Part shown: in pieces, positions 2,188-20,934 of the stretch
How positions within the stretch are numbered: the stretch's first letter is position 1
Layout: the number at the start of each line of letters is the position of its first letter
Assembly: GCA_002069755.1 (NCBI GenBank)
Contig: MWBX01000012.1
Location: forward strand, 1 to 32,384
Source of the DNA: Parcubacteria group bacterium ADurb.Bin247
GTDB taxonomy: Bacteria > Patescibacteriota > Minisyncoccia > Minisyncoccales > CSSED10-335
Direction of reading: 5' to 3'
DNA: 32,384 nucleotides
The notes under the pieces: generated by a model
What the model was told of the DNA's origin: nothing
The model's input: the letters and a program-made list of their open reading frames with translations, nothing else
The model's database searches: none
Made by a program: the position numbers and the translations under genes

Positions 2188-3271
2188 TTAATTGTTATTT
2201 TTATAAAGCATTCTTAATTCTGACTCAATAAACATATCTAGATCGCCGTCTAAAACACTCTCTACATTAGAAATTTCAACTCCTGTTCTTAAATCTTTTA
2301 TCATTTTGTAAGGGTGCAAGACATAAGATCTAATTTGGTTTCCCCAAGCTACTGCTAACTTTTCTCCTTTAATTTCACCTATTTCTTCTAATTTCTGCTC
2401 TTCTTGAATGGCTAGTAACTTAGAAAAAAGTATACCCATTGCTTTTTCTTTATTCTGCGCTTGAGATCTTTCATTTTGAGAAGATACCGCAATGCCAGTT
2501 GGAATATGAATAATTCTAATTGCTGTTTCTCTCTTGTTAACATTTTGACCTCCTGGACCTGAAGATTTAGATGTTTCTATTCTTAAATCTTCTGGTTTAA
2601 TTTCAAAACTCTTATCCTTTATCTCAGGCAATATGTCTACCATCGCAAAAGAAGTGTGTCTTAATCCTTTTCCAGAAAATGGTGAATTTCTTACCAATCG
2701 ATGAACTCCTTTTTCATGTTTTAATGTTCCAAACGCCCACGAACCCTTAACTTCAAGTGTTGCCTCCTTAATACCACCAACTTCTCCCAAAGACTGATCT
2801 ATTACTGTCACTCTAAACCCTTTTGAGCTAAGATATCTCTCATACATTCTTAAAATCATACCTGCCCAATCTTGTGCATCAACTCCTCCTGCTCCAGCAA
2901 ATATCTGCAATAATGCATTATTTTTATCATACTTACCAGACAGAAAAACTTTAATTTCTTCTTTAGATATTTCTCTTTCTAGTTCAAATAACTTTTCTTT
3001 AATCTCTCCTTCTAGACTACCGTCGGAATCAATACTTGTCATATTCGCTAAATCAGCCAAACTACTCTTGATTCTATCAATAACACCCAACTCTTCTTTT
3101 ATATCAGAATATTCTCTACCAATGATAATAGCATCGCTAGAACCCCAAAAGCTAGGGTCTTTTTGAATCTCATCAATCTCTAATAATCTCTTTCTTTTGT
3201 TTTCAAGGTCAAAGACATTCCTCTAACGAGAGGATTTTCTTTTCTAATTCTTTAATATCTTCAATTGCCAT
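2188..3271 (-). CDS. prfB: Peptide chain release factor 2 with programmed +1 frameshift
   Basis: RF2 terminates translation at UGA and UAA. The coding frame is split: ATG 3271 reads 20 codons (MAIEDIKELEKK...EECL) to an in-frame TGA at 3211..3209. Skipping one base (3211) and reading GAC from 3210 continues DLENKRKRLLEIDEI and joins the main 340-codon body. The full product is about 360 aa, normal for RF2. The SPF tripeptide that recognises the second and third stop bases is in RLVRNSPFSGKG, and the peptidyl-hydrolysis GGQ motif is in SSGPGGQNVNKRE. The first in-body ATG at 3090 would lose the N-terminal helical domain and is not the true start. It shows directly that UGA is read as a stop here. 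Confidence 0.95.
3208..3226 (-). promoter_or_regulatory. prfB +1 programmed frameshift site
   Basis: The minus strand reads TTAGAGGAATGTCTTTGAC. It has the canonical CTT-TGA-C slip site, preceded by a Shine-Dalgarno-like AGAGGA a few nucleotides upstream, as in the known RF2 autoregulation element. When RF2 is scarce the ribosome pauses at TGA, tRNA-Leu slips from CTT to TTT and the full-length protein is made. Confidence 0.93.
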
Positions 3272-3313
3272 AGCTTGAATAATACACAAAATTTGATTTT
3301 GTTTCAATACCTG

Positions 3314-3384
3314 AGCCTCCTACCAGAATCGAACTGGTGTCTACGGTTTACGAAACCGTTGCTCTGCCACTGAGCTAAAGAGGC
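3314..3384 (-). tRNA. tRNA-Thr (anticodon CGT)
   Basis: Minus-strand cloverleaf. Acceptor GCCTCTT (3384..3378) pairs with AGGAGGC (3321..3315). The anticodon stem ACGGT/ACCGT holds loop TTCGTAA, giving CGT. The T-arm has AGTTCGATTCT. CCA is not encoded. It lies 6 nt from tRNA-Gly and about 42 nt before prfB. Confidence 0.95.
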
Positions 3385-3390
3385 ACTGTG

Positions 3391-3461
3391 AGCGGGATAC
3401 CAGAATCGAACTGGCACCTCAACCTTGGGAAGGTTGCGTACTACCACTATACTAATCCCGC
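3391..3461 (-). tRNA. tRNA-Gly (anticodon CCC)
   Basis: Minus-strand cloverleaf. Acceptor GCGGGAT (3461..3455) pairs with ATCCCGC (3398..3392). The anticodon stem CAACC/GGTTG holds loop TTCCCAA, giving CCC. CCA is not encoded. Its first 10 nt overlap the end of the upstream divIC-like ORF, whose TAG stop is tRNA positions 8-10. Confidence 0.95.
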
Positions 3462-3826
3462 ATAAATATCTTTTTCCACCAAGGAACATCTACCTCCTCT
3501 TTTTTAATATCTTCTTCCTCTATTTCAGGGTATTTAATTATGACTACTTCTTCTCCTGGTTTTTTAAAAAGAAATTGCTCCCGAGCCATCTTTTCAATGT
3601 TATAAAGTTCTTCACTTGGATCTACGCTAAGATTCTCTTTCGCTTCTTTTTCTAATATCATTAATTCTTCTTTCTTTCCATCAAGATATTCTTCAATTGA
3701 AGCTCTTTTCTGATATATCCGAATATTTGAAACAATTAAAAGAATTAAGATAAAAAACATACAAAAGAAAACAATAAGAGTAATGTAATCTTTTTCTTTG
3801 TGAATGATTTTTTTATTTGTCTTCAT
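3452..3826 (-). CDS. FtsB/DivIC-type septum formation initiator
   Basis: 124-aa bitopic protein. It has a basic cytoplasmic N-terminus (MKTNKKIIHKEKD), one membrane helix near residues 15-34, then a charged coiled-coil region with QKRASIEEYLDGKKEELMIL and the family-like tail EELYNIEKMAREQFLFKKPGEEVVIIK. The last part matches the FtsB/DivIC pattern in which a REQY/F..PGE..I motif follows the coiled coil. Such proteins bridge FtsQ/DivIB and FtsL in the divisome. It starts one base into the lepA stop (TAATG). Its C-terminal WWKKIFMRD is encoded across the junction with tRNA-Gly, so RNase P processing of the transcript would cut away its stop codon. Confidence 0.8.
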   Translation of the reverse strand: MKTNKKIIHKEKDYITLIVFFCMFFILILLIVSNIRIYQKRASIEEYLDGKKEELMILEKEAKENLSVDPSEELYNIEKMAREQFLFKKPGEEVVIIKYPEIEEEDIKKEEVDVPWWKKIFMRD

Positions 3827-5607
3827 TATTTCTTAAAAACATTAAAAAATACTTCAGGTGGAACTCTAATCTTGCCCATTCTTTCTTGAAGTTTCTTTTT
3901 TCCTTTCTTTTGTTTGTCTAGTAACTTTCTTTTTCTAGTAACATCACCTCCATAAAGTGGAGCGGTAACATCTTTTCTTTGAGCTTTAACAGTTTCTCGA
4001 GCAATAATTTTACCATATATTGCAGCTTGAATAGCTAAAGCAAATTGTTGAGATGGTAATAGTTCTTTAAGCTTCTCAGTTATCTTTTTCCCTTCGTTAT
4101 ATGCTTCTTTTTTGTCTACTATTTGTGAAAAAACTTCTTCTACATTACCACCAACCAAAACCTCTAGCTTGACCAAATCTCCCTCTCTTAAACCAATAAG
4201 GCTATAGTTAAATGAAGCATAACCCTGAGTTACTCCCTTAATCTTATCATGAAAACCAGTAATAATCTTTCTTAGTGGAACCTCATAGACAACTAAAATC
4301 TTATCTCCCTTAAAATATTTGTTTTCAATCACCTTGCCACCCATAGAACTTAGCAACTCCATTACTCCTCCGATATATACCGATGGTGTCATAACTTCTA
4401 GACGAACCCACGGCTCTAAAATTTGCTTAATATTTGATCCATTAGGCCAATCAGCTGGAGACATAATTGTCATCTCGTCACCCTTACCATCTATTATCTT
4501 ATAAACTACAGATGGAGATGTAATAACTAAATCTAGATTAAATTCGCGATGAAGTCTCTCGGATATTATTTCAGCGTGCAAGGAACCTAAAAAGCCACAA
4601 CGAAAACCACGCCCCAATACTTCTTTAAACTCTGGTTCAAATGTAATAGCTGGATCCGTCAACCTTATTCTGTCCAATGCTTCTCTTAAAAGATTGTAGT
4701 CGTCAGTGTCTTCGGGGTAAAAGCTTACAAAAACAACAGGATTAAGCTCTTTGTAACCTGGTAATGGCTTAGCCTCTTTATTATTACTAATAGTATCTCC
4801 AATTTTAATAATCCCCGCCTCTTTAATTCCTGTTGCAATGTATCCAATATCTCCACAGTTTAGTATATTTTGAGGAGAAAATGTAGGAATGAAATAACCA
4901 ACTTCTTTTACTTCTCCTTTTGCATTTACTGACAAAAGATAAATCTTCTCACCTTTTTTAATAGAACCGCTAACCACTCTAACATATGCGACAACTCCCT
5001 TAAAAGAGTCGTATTCAGAATCAAAGATTAAACCTTTAAAATCTTCGCCTTCTACTTTTTTAGGAGCTGGGATTTTCTCTATTACCCTAGCTAATAATTT
5101 ATCTACATTGATATTCTTTTTAGCTGAAATACGAATTACCTCAGATGAATCTATACCCAAGAGCTCGGCTAAGTTATTAGATACATCTTCGGTCATTGCA
5201 TTGGGTAAATCTATTTTATTCACCGCTGGAACAATTACAAGATTTTGTCTTTTAGCAAAATCTAGGTTGGCTAGTGTTTGAGCTTGAATTCCTTTAGTAG
5301 CATCAACTAACAACACTACACCTTCTACGGCGGCTAAAGATCTAGAAACCTCGTAGGAAAAATCAACATGACCAGGAGTATCTATCATATTAATAATATA
5401 TTCTTCTCCATTTAAAGAATACTTCATCCTTACTGGTTGCATTTTAATTGTAATTCCCCTTTCACGTTCCAAATCCATAGAATCAAGCATCTGCTCCCCT
5501 ATTTTCTCCGAAGATACGGTTCCAGTAATTTCAATCATTCTATCAGCAAGAGTAGACTTACCATGATCAATGTGCGATATTATTGAAAAGTTTCTTATAT
5601 TTTTCAT
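3826..5607 (-). CDS. lepA: Elongation factor 4 (LepA) GTPase
   Basis: 593 aa, full family length. The G1 motif is in SHIDHGKSTLADRM, G2 in RERGIT, G3 is DTPGHVDF, G4 is NKID and G5 is ISAKK. The LepA-specific C-terminal domain ends KKKLQERMGKIRVPPEVFF. EF4 binds stalled or mistranslocated ribosomes and promotes back-translocation. The start overlaps the murJ stop by ATGA and the stop shares a base with the downstream divIC-like start, so the three genes are probably translationally coupled. Confidence 0.97.
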   Translation of the reverse strand: MKNIRNFSIISHIDHGKSTLADRMIEITGTVSSEKIGEQMLDSMDLERERGITIKMQPVRMKYSLNGEEYIINMIDTPGHVDFSYEVSRSLAAVEGVVLLVDATKGIQAQTLANLDFAKRQNLVIVPAVNKIDLPNAMTEDVSNNLAELLGIDSSEVIRISAKKNINVDKLLARVIEKIPAPKKVEGEDFKGLIFDSEYDSFKGVVAYVRVVSGSIKKGEKIYLLSVNAKGEVKEVGYFIPTFSPQNILNCGDIGYIATGIKEAGIIKIGDTISNNKEAKPLPGYKELNPVVFVSFYPEDTDDYNLLREALDRIRLTDPAITFEPEFKEVLGRGFRCGFLGSLHAEIISERLHREFNLDLVITSPSVVYKIIDGKGDEMTIMSPADWPNGSNIKQILEPWVRLEVMTPSVYIGGVMELLSSMGGKVIENKYFKGDKILVVYEVPLRKIITGFHDKIKGVTQGYASFNYSLIGLREGDLVKLEVLVGGNVEEVFSQIVDKKEAYNEGKKITEKLKELLPSQQFALAIQAAIYGKIIARETVKAQRKDVTAPLYGGDVTRKRKLLDKQKKGKKKLQERMGKIRVPPEVFFNVFKK

Positions 5608-15252: not shown

Positions 15253-16134
15253 TTATTTTTTATTATTAAACCAAGTTACCAAAAGTGGTCCAGCCAAAAA
15301 TATTGAAGAATAGGTACCTACAGATATACCCAATATCATAGCAAAAACAAACCAACGAATTGTTTCTCCGCCTAGAACAAATATTGCAATTAAAACAAAC
15401 AATGTTGTAGCTGATGTGTTAATCGATCTTTCTAACGTTTCATTTAAACTTTTATTAACAATATCAGGAAATACAAGACGAGGGTTTTTAGCAATGTTTT
15501 CTCTTATTCGGTCAAAAACAACTACAGTATCGTTAATTGAATAACCAAGCACAGTTAAAAGAGCAACCGCTATCGGAACACTAAACTGTATTCCGTATAA
15601 ATATCCCATAATTGAAAAAGCCCCTAAAACTATCAAAACATCGTGAAAGAATCCAATCCCAGCTGCAACCATACCGTACTGCCACGATCTTATATTCTTA
15701 CTCCCCATATTTCTAAAGGTTAACGCAATGTATAATACGATAGCCAGGGATGCTAAAATAATACTAATAACTGATTTATTTTTTAATTCTTCTCCTATGG
15801 TTGGACCAATTGATTCAAAGTATTTTTCTGTCGCGCCGCTCAAAGAATCTTTTAACAAAATATATTTATCTTGTGATATATTAGGCATTCTTAGCACAAA
15901 ACCATTTTCTCCAATTGATTGTATAGTAACATCGTTTAGACCAATACCAGAAAGTGTTGATCTTAATTCAGAAACACTAGGAACATCTTCACTATATTCT
16001 ATTTCCATCATACTCCCTCCAGTAAATTCTATTCCAAAGTTAACTCCAAAAAACACAAGAGAAAACAAGCTTGCTAAAATTAATATAGAAGAAATTCCAT
16101 AATATATTCTTTTGTATTTAATAAAATTTATCAT
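15253..16134 (-). CDS. secF: Protein-export membrane protein SecF
   Basis: 293 aa with six membrane segments and an external P1-like domain. Family motifs: FGVNFGIEFTGGSMMEIEYS after the first helix and the transmembrane signature YSINDTVVVFDRIREN. With SecD it uses the proton gradient to complete and release translocated proteins on the outer side. ATG 16134 overlaps the secD stop as ATGA; an in-frame ATG 18 nt further upstream lies inside secD and is less likely. Confidence 0.95.
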   Translation of the reverse strand: MINFIKYKRIYYGISSILILASLFSLVFFGVNFGIEFTGGSMMEIEYSEDVPSVSELRSTLSGIGLNDVTIQSIGENGFVLRMPNISQDKYILLKDSLSGATEKYFESIGPTIGEELKNKSVISIILASLAIVLYIALTFRNMGSKNIRSWQYGMVAAGIGFFHDVLIVLGAFSIMGYLYGIQFSVPIAVALLTVLGYSINDTVVVFDRIRENIAKNPRLVFPDIVNKSLNETLERSINTSATTLFVLIAIFVLGGETIRWFVFAMILGISVGTYSSIFLAGPLLVTWFNNKK

Positions 16135-17783
16135 TTCTTTTTCCAAAGCCAATTAATTTTCTCAAATCTGGTTCCCTCAAAAGATTTAAGCAAAGACCTT
16201 GTTATAACCAAAGCAGCAAACAAACTAACTAATATTCCAATAATCAATGTAAAAGCAAATCCTTGAACAAAACTAGTTCCGACAAAGAAAAGAATAAAAG
16301 CAACAATCAATGTTGTAAAGTTTCCATCTCTAATAGAAGGCCAAGCTCTTTCAAATCCAATATCAATACTATCTTTTAATGATTTTCCTAAATCCAACTC
16401 TTCTTTCATTCTAGAAAATACTAAAATATTAGCATCTACTGCCATACCAATTGAAAGAATAAATCCAGTTATACCCGATAATGTTAATGTAACTGGTAAT
16501 AATTTAAATATTGTCAATACAAATATGGTGTAGCAAATCAAACTAATAGCCGCTAATAATCCTGGTAATCGATAAAATGCAATAATAAACAAAACTATAG
16601 CTAAAAAGCCCCAAAAACCAGCTACCAAAGACTTTTCTAACGATTCCATACCCATAGTTGGTCCAACATTTTGATAATTTAAAAGCTCAATCGGAACTGG
16701 TAAAGCTCCACTTCTAAGACGAGTTACAATTTGTCTCACAGTATCTAAATCAGCTTCTCCAGTAATAACTGCCTTGCCTCCTGATATTTTCTCTTGAATT
16801 GTGGGAGCATAGAGATCATCATCTGTAATTTCACCATCTCCGTTTGTATCAATAATTGACATACCATCTAAAAATATTGCTAAAGGTTTGCCAACATTTC
16901 TCTCGGTAATTTTTTCAAATATTTCACCACCTTCGGAAGTAAAATCTAATTCAATAATAATATCTCTTGTGCTTTGGTCAAAGAAGTATCTAGCAGTTTT
17001 TAAATACTCTCCACTAAGCTCAGTTCGCTTCCACTCACTAATATATTCTTGTGGATAAGCCTTTTTAATTAAAATATGACTAGCTTTTATCTCTCCTTCT
17101 TCGTTTTCATCTTCATCTTTTCTAATAATATGATACCCAAAATCAGTCTCTACAACTGATTCGTAAATCTCACCAGCATTTAAACTAAATACAGCCTCGT
17201 CAAATTCTGAAACCATGTCTCCTTTTTTAAAGGAACCAAGAGATCCTCCTTCTTGAGCACTCAAAAAGTCATCGGAATATTCTTTAGCGGTCTCTTCAAA
17301 ATCAGCACCATCTAAGATCATCTGAAAAACTGATTCCGCTTTTTCTAAAGCTTCTTTATTCTTCTCTTCAATAATCTCTAATATCTCGGGCGTTATATCT
17401 TCTTCGGTGCTAAGCTCCTTAAATTCTAAAAAAGGAGTTTCGCCAATCATTTTAATTGCCTCTACTGGATCAACAACTCCAGCCAATTCTACTACTAAAC
17501 GATCTCCTCTTACTTGGACCAATGGTTCAGATACTCCGAAATAATTAACCCTTCTTTCAATTAAATCCCTAAGTCCATTCATTCTATTGTTATGCTCACT
17601 TTCATCAACATCGCTAAGATCGGCCTGATAAACCAATTGAGTTCCGCCTTGCAAATCAAGGCCCAATTTAAAATCAACCTTAGGAATATCAACAAAATTA
17701 CTGAATGGTGTTGGATAAACAAAAGCTCCTAAAGCCAGAGTTATTACAAATATGAGTACGACTGTTATTCTATAGTAATTCAT
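16131..17783 (-). CDS. secD: SecD with inserted parvulin domain and EF-hand-like loop
   Basis: 550 aa. SecD hallmarks: first helix (res 5-24), DFKLGLDLQGGTQLVYQADL (37-56), LDG and LRSGALPVPI in the P1 domain, and GMAVDANILVFSRMKEEL in the transmembrane core. Residues about 130-245 are an extra domain. DFEETAKEYS, GGSLGSFKKGDMVSEFDEAVFSL and VETDFGYHIIR are classic parvulin (PpiC) segments, but the strand ASHILIK that normally opens a parvulin comes after GYHII (234-240), a circularly permuted order. Residues 312-323 (DTNGDGEITDDD) form a canonical 12-residue EF-hand loop between LDGMSII and the APTIQEKI strand. It may combine translocation pulling with prolyl isomerisation outside the membrane. 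It has its own promoter and no SD. Confidence 0.93.
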   Translation of the reverse strand: MNYYRITVVLIFVITLALGAFVYPTPFSNFVDIPKVDFKLGLDLQGGTQLVYQADLSDVDESEHNNRMNGLRDLIERRVNYFGVSEPLVQVRGDRLVVELAGVVDPVEAIKMIGETPFLEFKELSTEEDITPEILEIIEEKNKEALEKAESVFQMILDGADFEETAKEYSDDFLSAQEGGSLGSFKKGDMVSEFDEAVFSLNAGEIYESVVETDFGYHIIRKDEDENEEGEIKASHILIKKAYPQEYISEWKRTELSGEYLKTARYFFDQSTRDIIIELDFTSEGGEIFEKITERNVGKPLAIFLDGMSIIDTNGDGEITDDDLYAPTIQEKISGGKAVITGEADLDTVRQIVTRLRSGALPVPIELLNYQNVGPTMGMESLEKSLVAGFWGFLAIVLFIIAFYRLPGLLAAISLICYTIFVLTIFKLLPVTLTLSGITGFILSIGMAVDANILVFSRMKEELDLGKSLKDSIDIGFERAWPSIRDGNFTTLIVAFILFFVGTSFVQGFAFTLIIGILVSLFAALVITRSLLKSFEGTRFEKINWLWKKK

Positions 17784-17799
17784 AATTAATTTATACCAT

Positions 17800-17828
17800 A
17801 TTCTATATTAAATTTGAATATTTGTCAA
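17800..17828 (-). promoter_or_regulatory. secD promoter
   Basis: Minus strand: perfect -35 TTGACA (17828..17823), 17-bp spacer, -10 TAGAAT (17805..17800, 5/6). The start is expected near 17793, only about 10 nt before the secD ATG, so the mRNA is nearly leaderless. It probably drives secD-secF and perhaps the following genes. Confidence 0.75.
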
Positions 17829-17834
17829 TTTTTT

Positions 17835-17948
17835 TTATGAGTAAATCACTTTATTTAAAAAGTGAATTAATACATAAATTCCGATTGCTATTAAAGCAAC
17901 AATCAGGATTATTTCAGCAATGTTGGCGTTTCTTTCTATTTCTTCCAT
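17835..17948 (-). CDS. 37-aa single-pass membrane microprotein
   Basis: ATG 17948 reads MEEIERNANIAE, then about 19 hydrophobic residues (IILIVALIAIGIYVLIHFL), then NKVIYS and TAA. The layout is an acidic N-terminus, one membrane helix and a short basic tail. A textbook Shine-Dalgarno GGAGG lies 9 nt before the ATG, notable because most genes in this window have none. The upstream leader holds a run of perfect hairpins. The frame is open further upstream to 18221 but would run through those hairpins. Position next to secD recalls yajC, but it is far too short and lacks YajC motifs. Alternatives are a type I toxin-like peptide or a Sec accessory microprotein. Function unknown. Confidence 0.6.
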   Translation of the reverse strand: MEEIERNANIAEIILIVALIAIGIYVLIHFLNKVIYS

Positions 17949-17957
17949 ATTTTGCCA

Positions 17958-17962
17958 CCTCC
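17958..17962 (-). promoter_or_regulatory. Strong Shine-Dalgarno that sets the microprotein start
   Basis: GGAGG on the minus strand (within TTTGGAGGTGGC), 9 nt upstream of ATG 17948. It supports translation starting there rather than at the far-upstream in-frame ATG at 18221. Confidence 0.7.
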
Positions 17963-17980
17963 AAAGAACTTTAATAAGTA

Positions 17981-18008
17981 GGAACTGAATTATCAGTTCC
18001 TTTTTTTT
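17981..18008 (+). terminator. Plus-strand intrinsic terminator
   Basis: Read on the plus strand, H6 (GGAACTGA-ATTA-TCAGTTCC) is followed directly by eight T residues, a textbook rho-independent terminator. No plus-strand protein gene of clear quality precedes it; only the antisense of the microprotein and the secD promoter region does. It would end any antisense transcript just upstream of the microprotein SD. Confidence 0.5.
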
Positions 18009-18108
18009 CACACTCATCTTTTTTTTGATGAGTGTCCCTATTCTTCTCTTCCTGCTTTCTGCAGGAAGAGCCCGCGTACCTATATGCCGTATAGCTACAC
18101 ATACGGTT

Positions 18109-18137
18109 ACTTTACTGCCTTTTAGTATAAATGTCAA
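18109..18137 (-). promoter_or_regulatory. Candidate promoter inside the hairpin region
   Basis: Minus strand: perfect TTGACA (18137..18132), 17-bp spacer, TAAAGT (18114..18109, 4/6). It lies just after H2 and just before H3, so H1 and H2 could be DNA-level operator palindromes and H3-H6 the transcribed leader. The predicted start near 18102 would fall inside the 5' arm of H3 and favour the alternative CTATA/TATAG hairpin. Confidence 0.45.
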
Positions 18138-18221
18138 TACCTTGTATGCGTCCAATACAAGATGAGCATAAATTTCATGCTCATCTTGCGAAAAATATAA
18201 CAATATCAATGAACGACTCAC

Positions 18222-18403
18222 ACATTGTTACTTAATTGATGATTAGAATTATCCAGGATAAAAAAGAAAGGTGTTGTCTTCTTTCATCTGAGAAGAGTAA
18301 ATTCGGGTCTAGACAAAAAATTGTTTAAAAACTTTAAACACGTACTTTAGAAATATTCTCGCTCACGGGTTTTGTTTTATACGCATTGCTGGATTAAAAA
18401 ATA
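18222..18403 (-). other. Non-coding stretch downstream of secA
   Basis: No convincing gene on either strand. Besides the weak secA terminator, a GAAAG/CTTTC pairing followed by T6 on the minus strand around 18264-18288 could act as a second weak terminator. Only very short frames are present on the plus strand (for example 29 codons from about 18239). Confidence 0.4.
18315..18340 (-). terminator. Likely secA terminator
   Basis: Minus strand TGTTTAAA-GTT-TTTAAACA (18340..18322), then A and TTTTTT. An 8-bp stem low in GC with a six-base U-run, about 64 nt beyond the secA stop. Confidence 0.5.
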
Positions 18404-20899
18404 CTACTTACCACAACACTGTTTGTATTTCTTAGGTCTTCCATCAGGATGTTTGGCTCCACAAGGACAAGGATCATTTCGCCCAACCTTATTAGACTTT
18501 CTTGGCACAACAACATTTGATTGTTGTCGCATTTCTGTTCTACCTTTTTCTATTGGACTAGGTGCAAAAGAAACCGATTTAACCTTAAATATTATTTCTA
18601 CAACTTCTTTTTCCCAAGTATTTATAAGATCCTGAAACATTTTACGGGCTTCATTTTTGTATTCAATCAAAGGATCCTTTTGACCATAAGCTCTAAGTCT
18701 AACCGAATCTCTTAGAGATTGAAGATTTTCTAAATGATCAACCCATAAGGAGTCTAACACTCTGAGACAAACAACCTTTTCTAAACTTCTCATATTCTCT
18801 AGGCCAATCTCTGTTTCTTTTTTAATATAATCATCTTCTGTATAGCCATAATTAGTAATCAAAGATAACATTGTTTCTTTAAGCGTTCCGTCTTTCTCTT
18901 TTTCAATAATATCTAGTCTTTTTTTATAAACAACTTCTCTTTGCTTATTGGAAACATCATCATAATCAAGTAAATGTTTTCTGGCATCAAAATGAAAGCC
19001 CTCTATTTTCCCCTGAGCCGATTCAATAATACCCGAAAGCATTTTCGTTTCAATTGGTTGATCTTCGGGCATATTGAGATATCCAGCCAAAGCTTCTATC
19101 TTTTCAGCTCCAAATATCCTTAAAAGATCATCTTCTAGAGACAAGAAGAATTGACTTGAGCCCGGATCTCCTTGTCTTCCTGCTCGACCTCGTAATTGAT
19201 CATCTATTCTTCTGGCTTCGTGTCTTTCTGTTCCAATAATATGTAATCCGCCAACATCAATAACTTTCTGAGGATCTTCTGGTGGATTACCTCCTAAAAC
19301 AATATCAACGCCCCTTCCCGCCATATTAGTAGCAACAGTTACCGCCTTAAACTTTCCTGCTTGAGCAATAATCTCAGCTTCTTTTTCATGATTCTTAGCG
19401 TTAAGTATACGATGAGGGATACCCTCTCTTTCTAAGAGCTTGCTCAATAATTCGTTCTTTTCAATTGATGTTGTTCCTATTAACAGTGGCTGACCTTTCT
19501 CGTGCCTTTCTTTTATTTCTCGAACAATAGCCTGATACTTACCAGATTTAGTTCGATAAACTAAGTCTGGCAAATCTTTTCTAATCATTGGCTTGTTAGT
19601 TGGAACAGCAATAACTTCTAGTTTGTAAACTTTATCAAACTCTTCGGCTGAAGTAAGAGCAGTTCCCGTCATTCCAGATAGCTTATCGTACATTCTAAAA
19701 TAGTTTTGAAATGTTATTGAAGCTAATGTTTTTGATTCGGGCTGAATCAAAACACCCTCTTTAGCTTCAATTGCTTGGTGAAGACCACCAGACCACCTTC
19801 GGCCAGGCATTTGCCTTCCAGTTGATTCGTCAATAATAATAACCTGATTATCTTTAACGATATAATGGTGATCTTTTTCAAAAAGAGGCCTTTTGGTTGT
19901 TGGATTTAATGCCTGAGCTCTTAGAGCTTGCTCTAAATGATGAAGATATTTAATTCCTTTTTCTTCATATATATTTTCTACACCTAATATCTTTTCTAAC
20001 TCAGCTACACCCTCTTCGGTTACAGTAACAGTTTTTTCTTTTTCAAATACTTCATAGTGTTTTCCGGGCTCAAGCTTAGGTACAATACGAGAAAAACTCC
20101 GATACATATCTGAACTCTCAGCGTCAGGTGCAGAAATAATTAATGGAGTTCTAGCTTCATCAATTAAAATGGAATCAACTTCATCAATTATGGCATAATT
20201 AAATTCTCTTTGTACTTTAGCTGATAGATCATAAACCATATTATCTTTAAGATAATCAAAACCAAACTCATTATTAGTTCCATATGTAATGTCGGCGCTA
20301 TAAGCTTCTTTTCTGGTAGATGGTCTTAAGTAATCCTCAACTACCTTAAAACCACCAAGCTCATCTCTTTTAAAATCTTCGGTACTTCCCTCGGCAGAAA
20401 AATCAGCATCATAAACAAAAGACTGCATATGATTAATACAAGCAGAAGACAAGCCAAGAAAATTATAAATTTGACCCATCCAAACCAAATCTCTTCTAGC
20501 TAAATAATCATTTACTGTTACTACATGAACTCCCTTTCCACTAAGAGCATTTAAATAGATTGGAAGAGTGGCAGCAAGAGTTTTACCTTCGCCTGTTTTC
20601 ATCTCAGCAATTTTGCCCTGATGAAGAACAATACCACCAATAACTTGTGAATCGTAATGTCTTTGACCTAAAACTCTTTTTGAAGCTTCTCTAACAACAG
20701 CAAAAACCTCAGGTAAAATGTTATCCAGTGTTTCACCAGAATTCAATCTATCTTTAAACTCTTGAGTTTTTAATTGAAAATCTTCGTCTTTTAAAGACGC
20801 TAAACTACTCTCTAGAGAATTAATTGCCTCAACTGTTGGTTGAAGTTTTTGAATATACTTTTCATTTGGATCGCCAAATATTTTATTTAAAAAAGACAT
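18404..20899 (-). CDS. secA: Preprotein translocase ATPase SecA
   Basis: 831 aa. DEAD-like motor that pushes unfolded preproteins through SecYEG. Motifs: Walker A in AEMKTGEGKTLAATLP, VTVNDYLARRD, the DEVD box in IIDEVDSILIDEARTPLI, a PTNKP segment, and GRAGRQGDPGSS in motor domain 2. The C-terminal SEC-C zinc motif is present as DPCPCGAKHPDGRPKKYKQCC. ATG 20899 (MSFLNKIFG) is chosen because a TATAAT box ends 6 nt upstream; an in-frame ATG 18 nt further up lies across the -10 box. It has its own promoter, likely leaderless, and the gene appears monocistronic. Confidence 0.97.
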   Translation of the reverse strand: MSFLNKIFGDPNEKYIQKLQPTVEAINSLESSLASLKDEDFQLKTQEFKDRLNSGETLDNILPEVFAVVREASKRVLGQRHYDSQVIGGIVLHQGKIAEMKTGEGKTLAATLPIYLNALSGKGVHVVTVNDYLARRDLVWMGQIYNFLGLSSACINHMQSFVYDADFSAEGSTEDFKRDELGGFKVVEDYLRPSTRKEAYSADITYGTNNEFGFDYLKDNMVYDLSAKVQREFNYAIIDEVDSILIDEARTPLIISAPDAESSDMYRSFSRIVPKLEPGKHYEVFEKEKTVTVTEEGVAELEKILGVENIYEEKGIKYLHHLEQALRAQALNPTTKRPLFEKDHHYIVKDNQVIIIDESTGRQMPGRRWSGGLHQAIEAKEGVLIQPESKTLASITFQNYFRMYDKLSGMTGTALTSAEEFDKVYKLEVIAVPTNKPMIRKDLPDLVYRTKSGKYQAIVREIKERHEKGQPLLIGTTSIEKNELLSKLLEREGIPHRILNAKNHEKEAEIIAQAGKFKAVTVATNMAGRGVDIVLGGNPPEDPQKVIDVGGLHIIGTERHEARRIDDQLRGRAGRQGDPGSSQFFLSLEDDLLRIFGAEKIEALAGYLNMPEDQPIETKMLSGIIESAQGKIEGFHFDARKHLLDYDDVSNKQREVVYKKRLDIIEKEKDGTLKETMLSLITNYGYTEDDYIKKETEIGLENMRSLEKVVCLRVLDSLWVDHLENLQSLRDSVRLRAYGQKDPLIEYKNEARKMFQDLINTWEKEVVEIIFKVKSVSFAPSPIEKGRTEMRQQSNVVVPRKSNKVGRNDPCPCGAKHPDGRPKKYKQCCGK

Positions 20900-20905
20900 G
20901 CCGAG

Positions 20906-20934
20906 ATTATAGCACAAAAGAGGCTAAACAACAA
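20906..20934 (-). promoter_or_regulatory. secA promoter (leaderless)
   Basis: Minus strand: TTGTTG (20934..20929), 17-bp spacer, perfect extended -10 TGC-TATAAT (hexamer 20911..20906). Only CTCGGC separates it from ATG 20899, so the expected start is the A of the ATG. Confidence 0.75.

Follow-up and report, generated by a model that had tools for sequence, protein, structure and literature searches.

A candidate membrane-microprotein gene with a hairpin-rich 5' region between secA and secD of a Parcubacteria group bacterium

Background

In ermC-type translational attenuation leaders, a short leader ORF and hairpins precede an ORF whose ribosome-binding region is partly paired, while in hok/sok (with its coupled mok ORF) and tisB/istR a structured mRNA encodes a short, single-helix hydrophobic peptide. 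Peptides that monitor the Sec/YidC machinery, among them SecM, VemP, MifM, ApdA and ApdP (PMC7897499, PMC10987492), require an N-terminal signal or transmembrane segment, a spacer of more than 30 residues and sequence conservation at the C-terminus (PMC10987492).

The locus described here, on the minus strand of the window (the whole stretch of DNA that was analysed, 32,384 nucleotides), is flanked by secA (18404-20917) and secD (16131-17783) and consists of palindromes and a microprotein ORF (ORF2). Like the ermC-type leaders, the unit has a short leader ORF (ORF1), hairpins and a partly paired ORF2 ribosome-binding region, but its hairpins form locally, one next to the other, its product is a microprotein, and no switch between alternative pairings was found. 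With hok/sok and tisB/istR it shares, as far as the general features given in a review go (PMC8309996), a hydrophobic single-helix peptide, a structured mRNA, a close upstream ORF and a terminator-like site on the antisense strand, whereas no antisense promoter, sequence family match or second copy was found here and toxicity is putative. The resemblance to SecM, VemP, MifM, ApdA and ApdP consists of a small membrane-targeted ORF before a sec gene and of mRNA stem-loops; unlike in those systems, an arrest domain at the C-terminus and a spacer are lacking, secD is preceded by a promoter of its own, and the hairpins precede the microprotein instead of lying between it and secD. The best reading of the locus is that of a small, separately promoted, genus-level membrane-microprotein gene with a hairpin-rich 5' region, its function being unproven.

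Results

Layout of the unit

The predicted order of parts is a promoter, an ATG at about +1 that opens a 43-codon ORF1 spanning hairpins H3 to H6, a GGAGG motif and the microprotein ORF2. The features of the region are as follows, the sister species being G001, the sole other genome of the genus compared (G002-G004 are further genomes of the family).

18158-18188, minus strand: H1, perfect palindrome, 12 bp
About 18141-18161, minus strand: H2, CTTGTAT/ATACAAG, 7 bp, read from the sequence
18109..18137, minus strand: predicted sigma-70-like promoter, TTGACA-17-TAAAGT, 10/12 matches
18087..18106, minus strand: H3, 6-bp stem at the ORF1 start, straddling the predicted +1
17971..18102, minus strand: ORF1, 43 aa, MCSYTAYRYAGSSCRKQEEKNRDTHQKKDECEKKGTDNSVPTY, probable leaderless start, encloses H3-H6
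18046..18070, minus strand: H4, 10-bp stem; a different yet still paired stem at this place in the sister species
18010..18035, minus strand: H5, 9-bp stem, retained in the sister species with one compensatory change
17980..18001, minus strand: H6, 9-bp stem, arms invariant in the sister species
17980..18001, plus strand: H6 with T-run, TTTTTTTT, intrinsic-terminator-like, best such site of the window
17835..17948, minus strand: ORF2, 37 aa, MEEIERNANIAEIILIVALIAIGIYVLIHFLNKVIYS, hydrophobic microprotein with a single helix, GGAGG 9 nt upstream of the ATG
17846..17865, minus strand: ORF2 3'-end stem, TCACTTT/AAAGTGA, shared with the sister species
17800..17828, minus strand: predicted secD promoter, TTGACA-17-TAGAAT, 11/12 matches, separate and directly before the secD start

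The end of the -10 hexamer lies 6 nt before the ORF1 ATG, and at the equivalent place in G001 the sequence TTGACT...TATAAA is followed by eight bases and then ATGTG; these promoter-like hexamers make it likely that transcription starts at or near the ORF1 ATG. An earlier note on this DNA had proposed six consecutive perfect hairpins (6-12 bp) leading a 37-aa ORF with a GGAGG, in the manner of a structured leader. The GGAGG and the 37-aa ORF are indeed there (17835-17948, minus strand), and the stems are perfect palindromes beyond chance, but H1 and H2 overlap by 4 nt (CTTG), so that at most five can coexist. Nor do all six lead the microprotein, as H1 and H2 form a repeat copy upstream of the TTGACA-17-TAAAGT promoter and H3 straddles the likely transcription start. 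The leader proposal agrees with the layout, with the retention of hairpins in G001 and with selection on ORF2 for hydrophobicity; the unit is not a pure leader, however, since a short ORF starting at the predicted +1, on which the earlier note is silent, crosses the hairpins in both species.

Folding and conservation of the hairpins

The segment 18190-17960 (minus strand) folded with -85.4 kcal/mol (z -9.2); for the core, bounded by the ATGs of ORF1 and ORF2, z was -9.0 in the sense orientation and -8.3 in the antisense one. The window as a whole has 13 strong perfect hairpins, and four of them sit within this 230-nt segment, the densest cluster of the window; on the basis of this density and of a sense-RNA fold z of about -9, the palindromes and the SD-preceded ORF were taken as real, beyond chance. 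With Rfam covariance models at the gathering score, only RNase P and three tRNAs were matched in the window, none of them at the hairpins, and Pfam, PADLOC and NCBIfam yielded no credible match for either ORF of either species.

In G001 the unit was found at L046:3531-3830, likewise upstream of secD, with a promoter, a 52-codon ORF, hairpins, H6 and a 27-codon hydrophobic ORF, so that layout, pairing and hydrophobicity are all retained in the close relative. The hairpins there are mostly other sequences, still pairing (fold z -5.7). At H5 (sequences read by eye) a T-A pair has become C-G by a double change, the outer pair is lost and the loop is different, while the H4 counterpart and one additional stem have different sequences and rely on G-U pairs possible only in sense RNA. 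The arms of H6, identical in the two genomes, are the best-conserved block of the unit. With only two sequences, the support from covariation is thin.

Beyond these two species the unit was not recovered. Among 247 genomes of the order, unit DNA was found in G000 (the genome of the window) and G001 only, the remaining short matches being chance-like; the H6 pattern was absent from the other 245; the region upstream of secD in G002-G004 had no strong hairpins; and a secD-based scan of genome contigs returned no close relative.

The two ORFs

ORF2 has a hydrophobic counterpart of 27 aa in G001, the ATG of which lies one base past the TGA of the ORF1 counterpart; the stop-to-ATG distance is thus 1 nt there and 22 nt in the window. 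In both species ORF2 starts in relative frame +1 (offsets 154 and 160), and its SD and AUG are paired in part in G000 and strongly in G001, where the SD is weak (GGTG). Alignment of the helix (51 nt) revealed 18 differences, distributed 7/3/8 over the codon positions, with synonymous changes in five codons and hydrophobicity kept or raised. In a simple neutral simulation of the helix, a stop arose in 56% of cases and equal hydrophobicity was reached in 7/100,000 (7e-5). Given the spread over codon positions, the synonymous changes and the simulation, ORF2 was taken as a real coding sequence, and the comparison of the two sequences indicates that it is under selection for hydrophobicity. An upstream extension of the ORF2 frame, open in both species, was rejected because there is no common start codon.

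The evidence for ORF1 is of a different kind. Dinucleotide shuffling put the chance of its open frame at 0.031 in G000 and 0.039 in G001, but its codon usage scored -0.09 and -0.06 against 0.23 +/- 0.08 for real genes, and no SD was found in front of it. The ORF2 frame is likewise open across the hairpin array in both species, so that ORF1 may be open only through hairpin composition. As ORF1 is open in both species and begins at the likely +1 in both, its translation is plausible, but in view of the low codon usage and the second open frame it is unproven. When five genomes of the family were searched with the ORF1 proteins, each protein recovered its own copy alone, besides one chance-level match. 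The N-terminal pattern MCxYxAYR gave five further matches, with about five expected by chance (own estimate), and one such match (L103), read in place, had no hairpin array. On the minus strand of L105, in a distant genome of the order (G139), a small Cys-rich ORF starts with MCNYCAYR, like the start of ORF1, probably by chance.

The repeat at H1 and H2

As judged from its copies, H1/H2 is an incomplete copy of an interspersed palindromic repeat specific to the genus and lies outside the unit proper. H1 with a TATTGGA flank gave seven matches in its own genome and 21 in G001, on several contigs. Copies of the repeat family were located as follows.

Window 18141-18188; L052, L053, L056, L057; L046:429-545 and 3859-4025: repeat family copies

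The family looks MITE-like: ends resembling AGTATTTTTTAATCCAGCAATGAG and TTGCGTTGGATAAGACT enclose inner TTAAGGAGCTTAGCTCCTTAA palindromes. It occupies about 4 loci in G000, compared with about 14 in G001. In the 3' flank of secA (window 18189-18404) there is a match to one repeat end at about 18371-18405, and the sequence suggests that most of the gap from secA to H1 is a decayed repeat element.

Discussion

The reading favoured here, tentatively and with somewhat less than even confidence, is that ORF2 is translated by coupling to ORF1 through a hairpin-rich mRNA, in a separately promoted unit found in one genus so far. Transcription would start near the ORF1 ATG, with ORF1 leaderless; a ribosome on ORF1 would have to open one strong hairpin after another and would terminate beside the ORF2 start. 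As the ribosome-binding region of ORF2 is partly paired, ORF2 would be made mainly via coupling to ORF1, and the hairpins would hold its output low and dependent on ORF1 translation efficiency. Consistent with this are the common order of parts, the promoter-like hexamers 6-8 nt before ATGTG, the full-length ORF1 frame, the fixed relative frame of ORF2 and the pairing of its SD and AUG in both species, as well as the excess folding by stems that have mostly changed yet still pair (in part through sense-only G-U pairs) and the pattern of change in ORF2. The poor codon usage of ORF1, the equally open ORF2 frame, the missing SD of ORF1, the weak one of ORF2 in G001 and the thin covariation count against it.

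A type I toxin-antitoxin-like locus is the main rival, because on the antisense strand H6 is the best intrinsic terminator of the window; in such a locus ORF2 would be a small membrane toxin silenced by a structured mRNA and by a plus-strand antisense RNA that ends at H6 and would cover the SD and start of ORF2. The earlier note had seen no U-run in the direction of the gene at any stem, which holds; on the plus strand, H6 is followed by T7-8, and the site is also the best-conserved block. A hairpin like H6 with flanking A/T runs occurs as one terminator-like site in four related viral (phage) contigs, the leader is structured, and ORF2 is a hydrophobic single-helix peptide below the limit of about 60 aa, matching type I toxins in size and hydrophobicity (general features in PMC8309996). 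This reading is nevertheless unlikely: the terminator-like site recurs in G001, but its T-run shrinks from 8 to 5, neither species showed a convincing antisense promoter upstream of H6 (best matches 8 and 9/12, at places that do not correspond), PADLOC, Pfam and NCBIfam held no match, and the unit is single-copy. A rival of equal weight, likewise unlikely, is a plain lineage-specific membrane microprotein with hairpins serving mRNA stability or insulation, free of leader peptide and regulation; the poor ORF1 codon usage and the fast change of hairpin sequences between species would suit it, but both species retain the start ATG, the spacing of the promoter and the small gap from stop to start.

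Decayed mobile palindromic repeats at an insertion hotspot, functionless for the cell, would account for H1/H2, which is such a repeat, and for the several repeats just downstream of ORF2 in G001; H4-H6, however, have no second copy detected in G000 or G001, the arms of H6 do not differ between the species and H5 persists through a compensatory change, making this quite an improbable origin of the array. Least credible, to the point of being very improbable, is a secretion monitor, with ORF2 as an arrest peptide like SecM, VemP or ApdA controlling secD. The unit lies upstream of secD in both species and ORF2 is a membrane segment, but ORF2 has only 37 aa (27 aa in G001) and stops within about 10 residues of its helix, which almost reaches the C-terminus, so that it lacks both the spacer and the C-terminal arrest region that Sec-monitoring peptides need (PMC10987492, PMC7897499), and an export role is unsupported. 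No SD precedes the secD ATG in the window, so that co-transcription with an SD masked by a stem-loop does not describe secD, although read-through may occur. The promoter directly before secD has the same arrangement in G001-G004 and is thus conserved in five genomes of the family, and in G001 a deaminase-like gene lies between secA and the unit, and about 250 nt containing repeats lie between the unit and secD. In view of this promoter and this separation, the link to protein export that the earlier note drew from the position beside secA and secD, a tempting step that is corrected here, is not supported.

Coupling between the two ORFs would, in a bolder form that is doubtful at present, make the unit an undescribed regulatory layout of a reduced, Patescibacteria-like genome, in which a leaderless mini-ORF running through a fast-evolving hairpin chain gates a membrane peptide, possibly as a chromosomal type I toxin-like locus of this lineage whose antisense RNA ends at H6. 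In bacteria with tiny genomes that are hard to culture, hardly any small proteins and regulatory RNAs have been mapped, and a microprotein mRNA with changing yet paired stems would be a concrete case on which translational gating, or a unit resembling type I toxins, could be modelled and tested.

Two observations concern the neighbouring genes. The deaminase-like gene of G001 (L046 about 3200-3534, motif CMHAEW), located between secA and the unit, does not occupy that position in the window. In SecD (16131-17783, minus strand), a parvulin domain of the PpiC type (Pfam Rotamase_3, E 1e-24) occupies residues 139-222, between the P1 subdomains, an insertion that looks clade-limited because most relatives from other families of the order align only in two flanking pieces.
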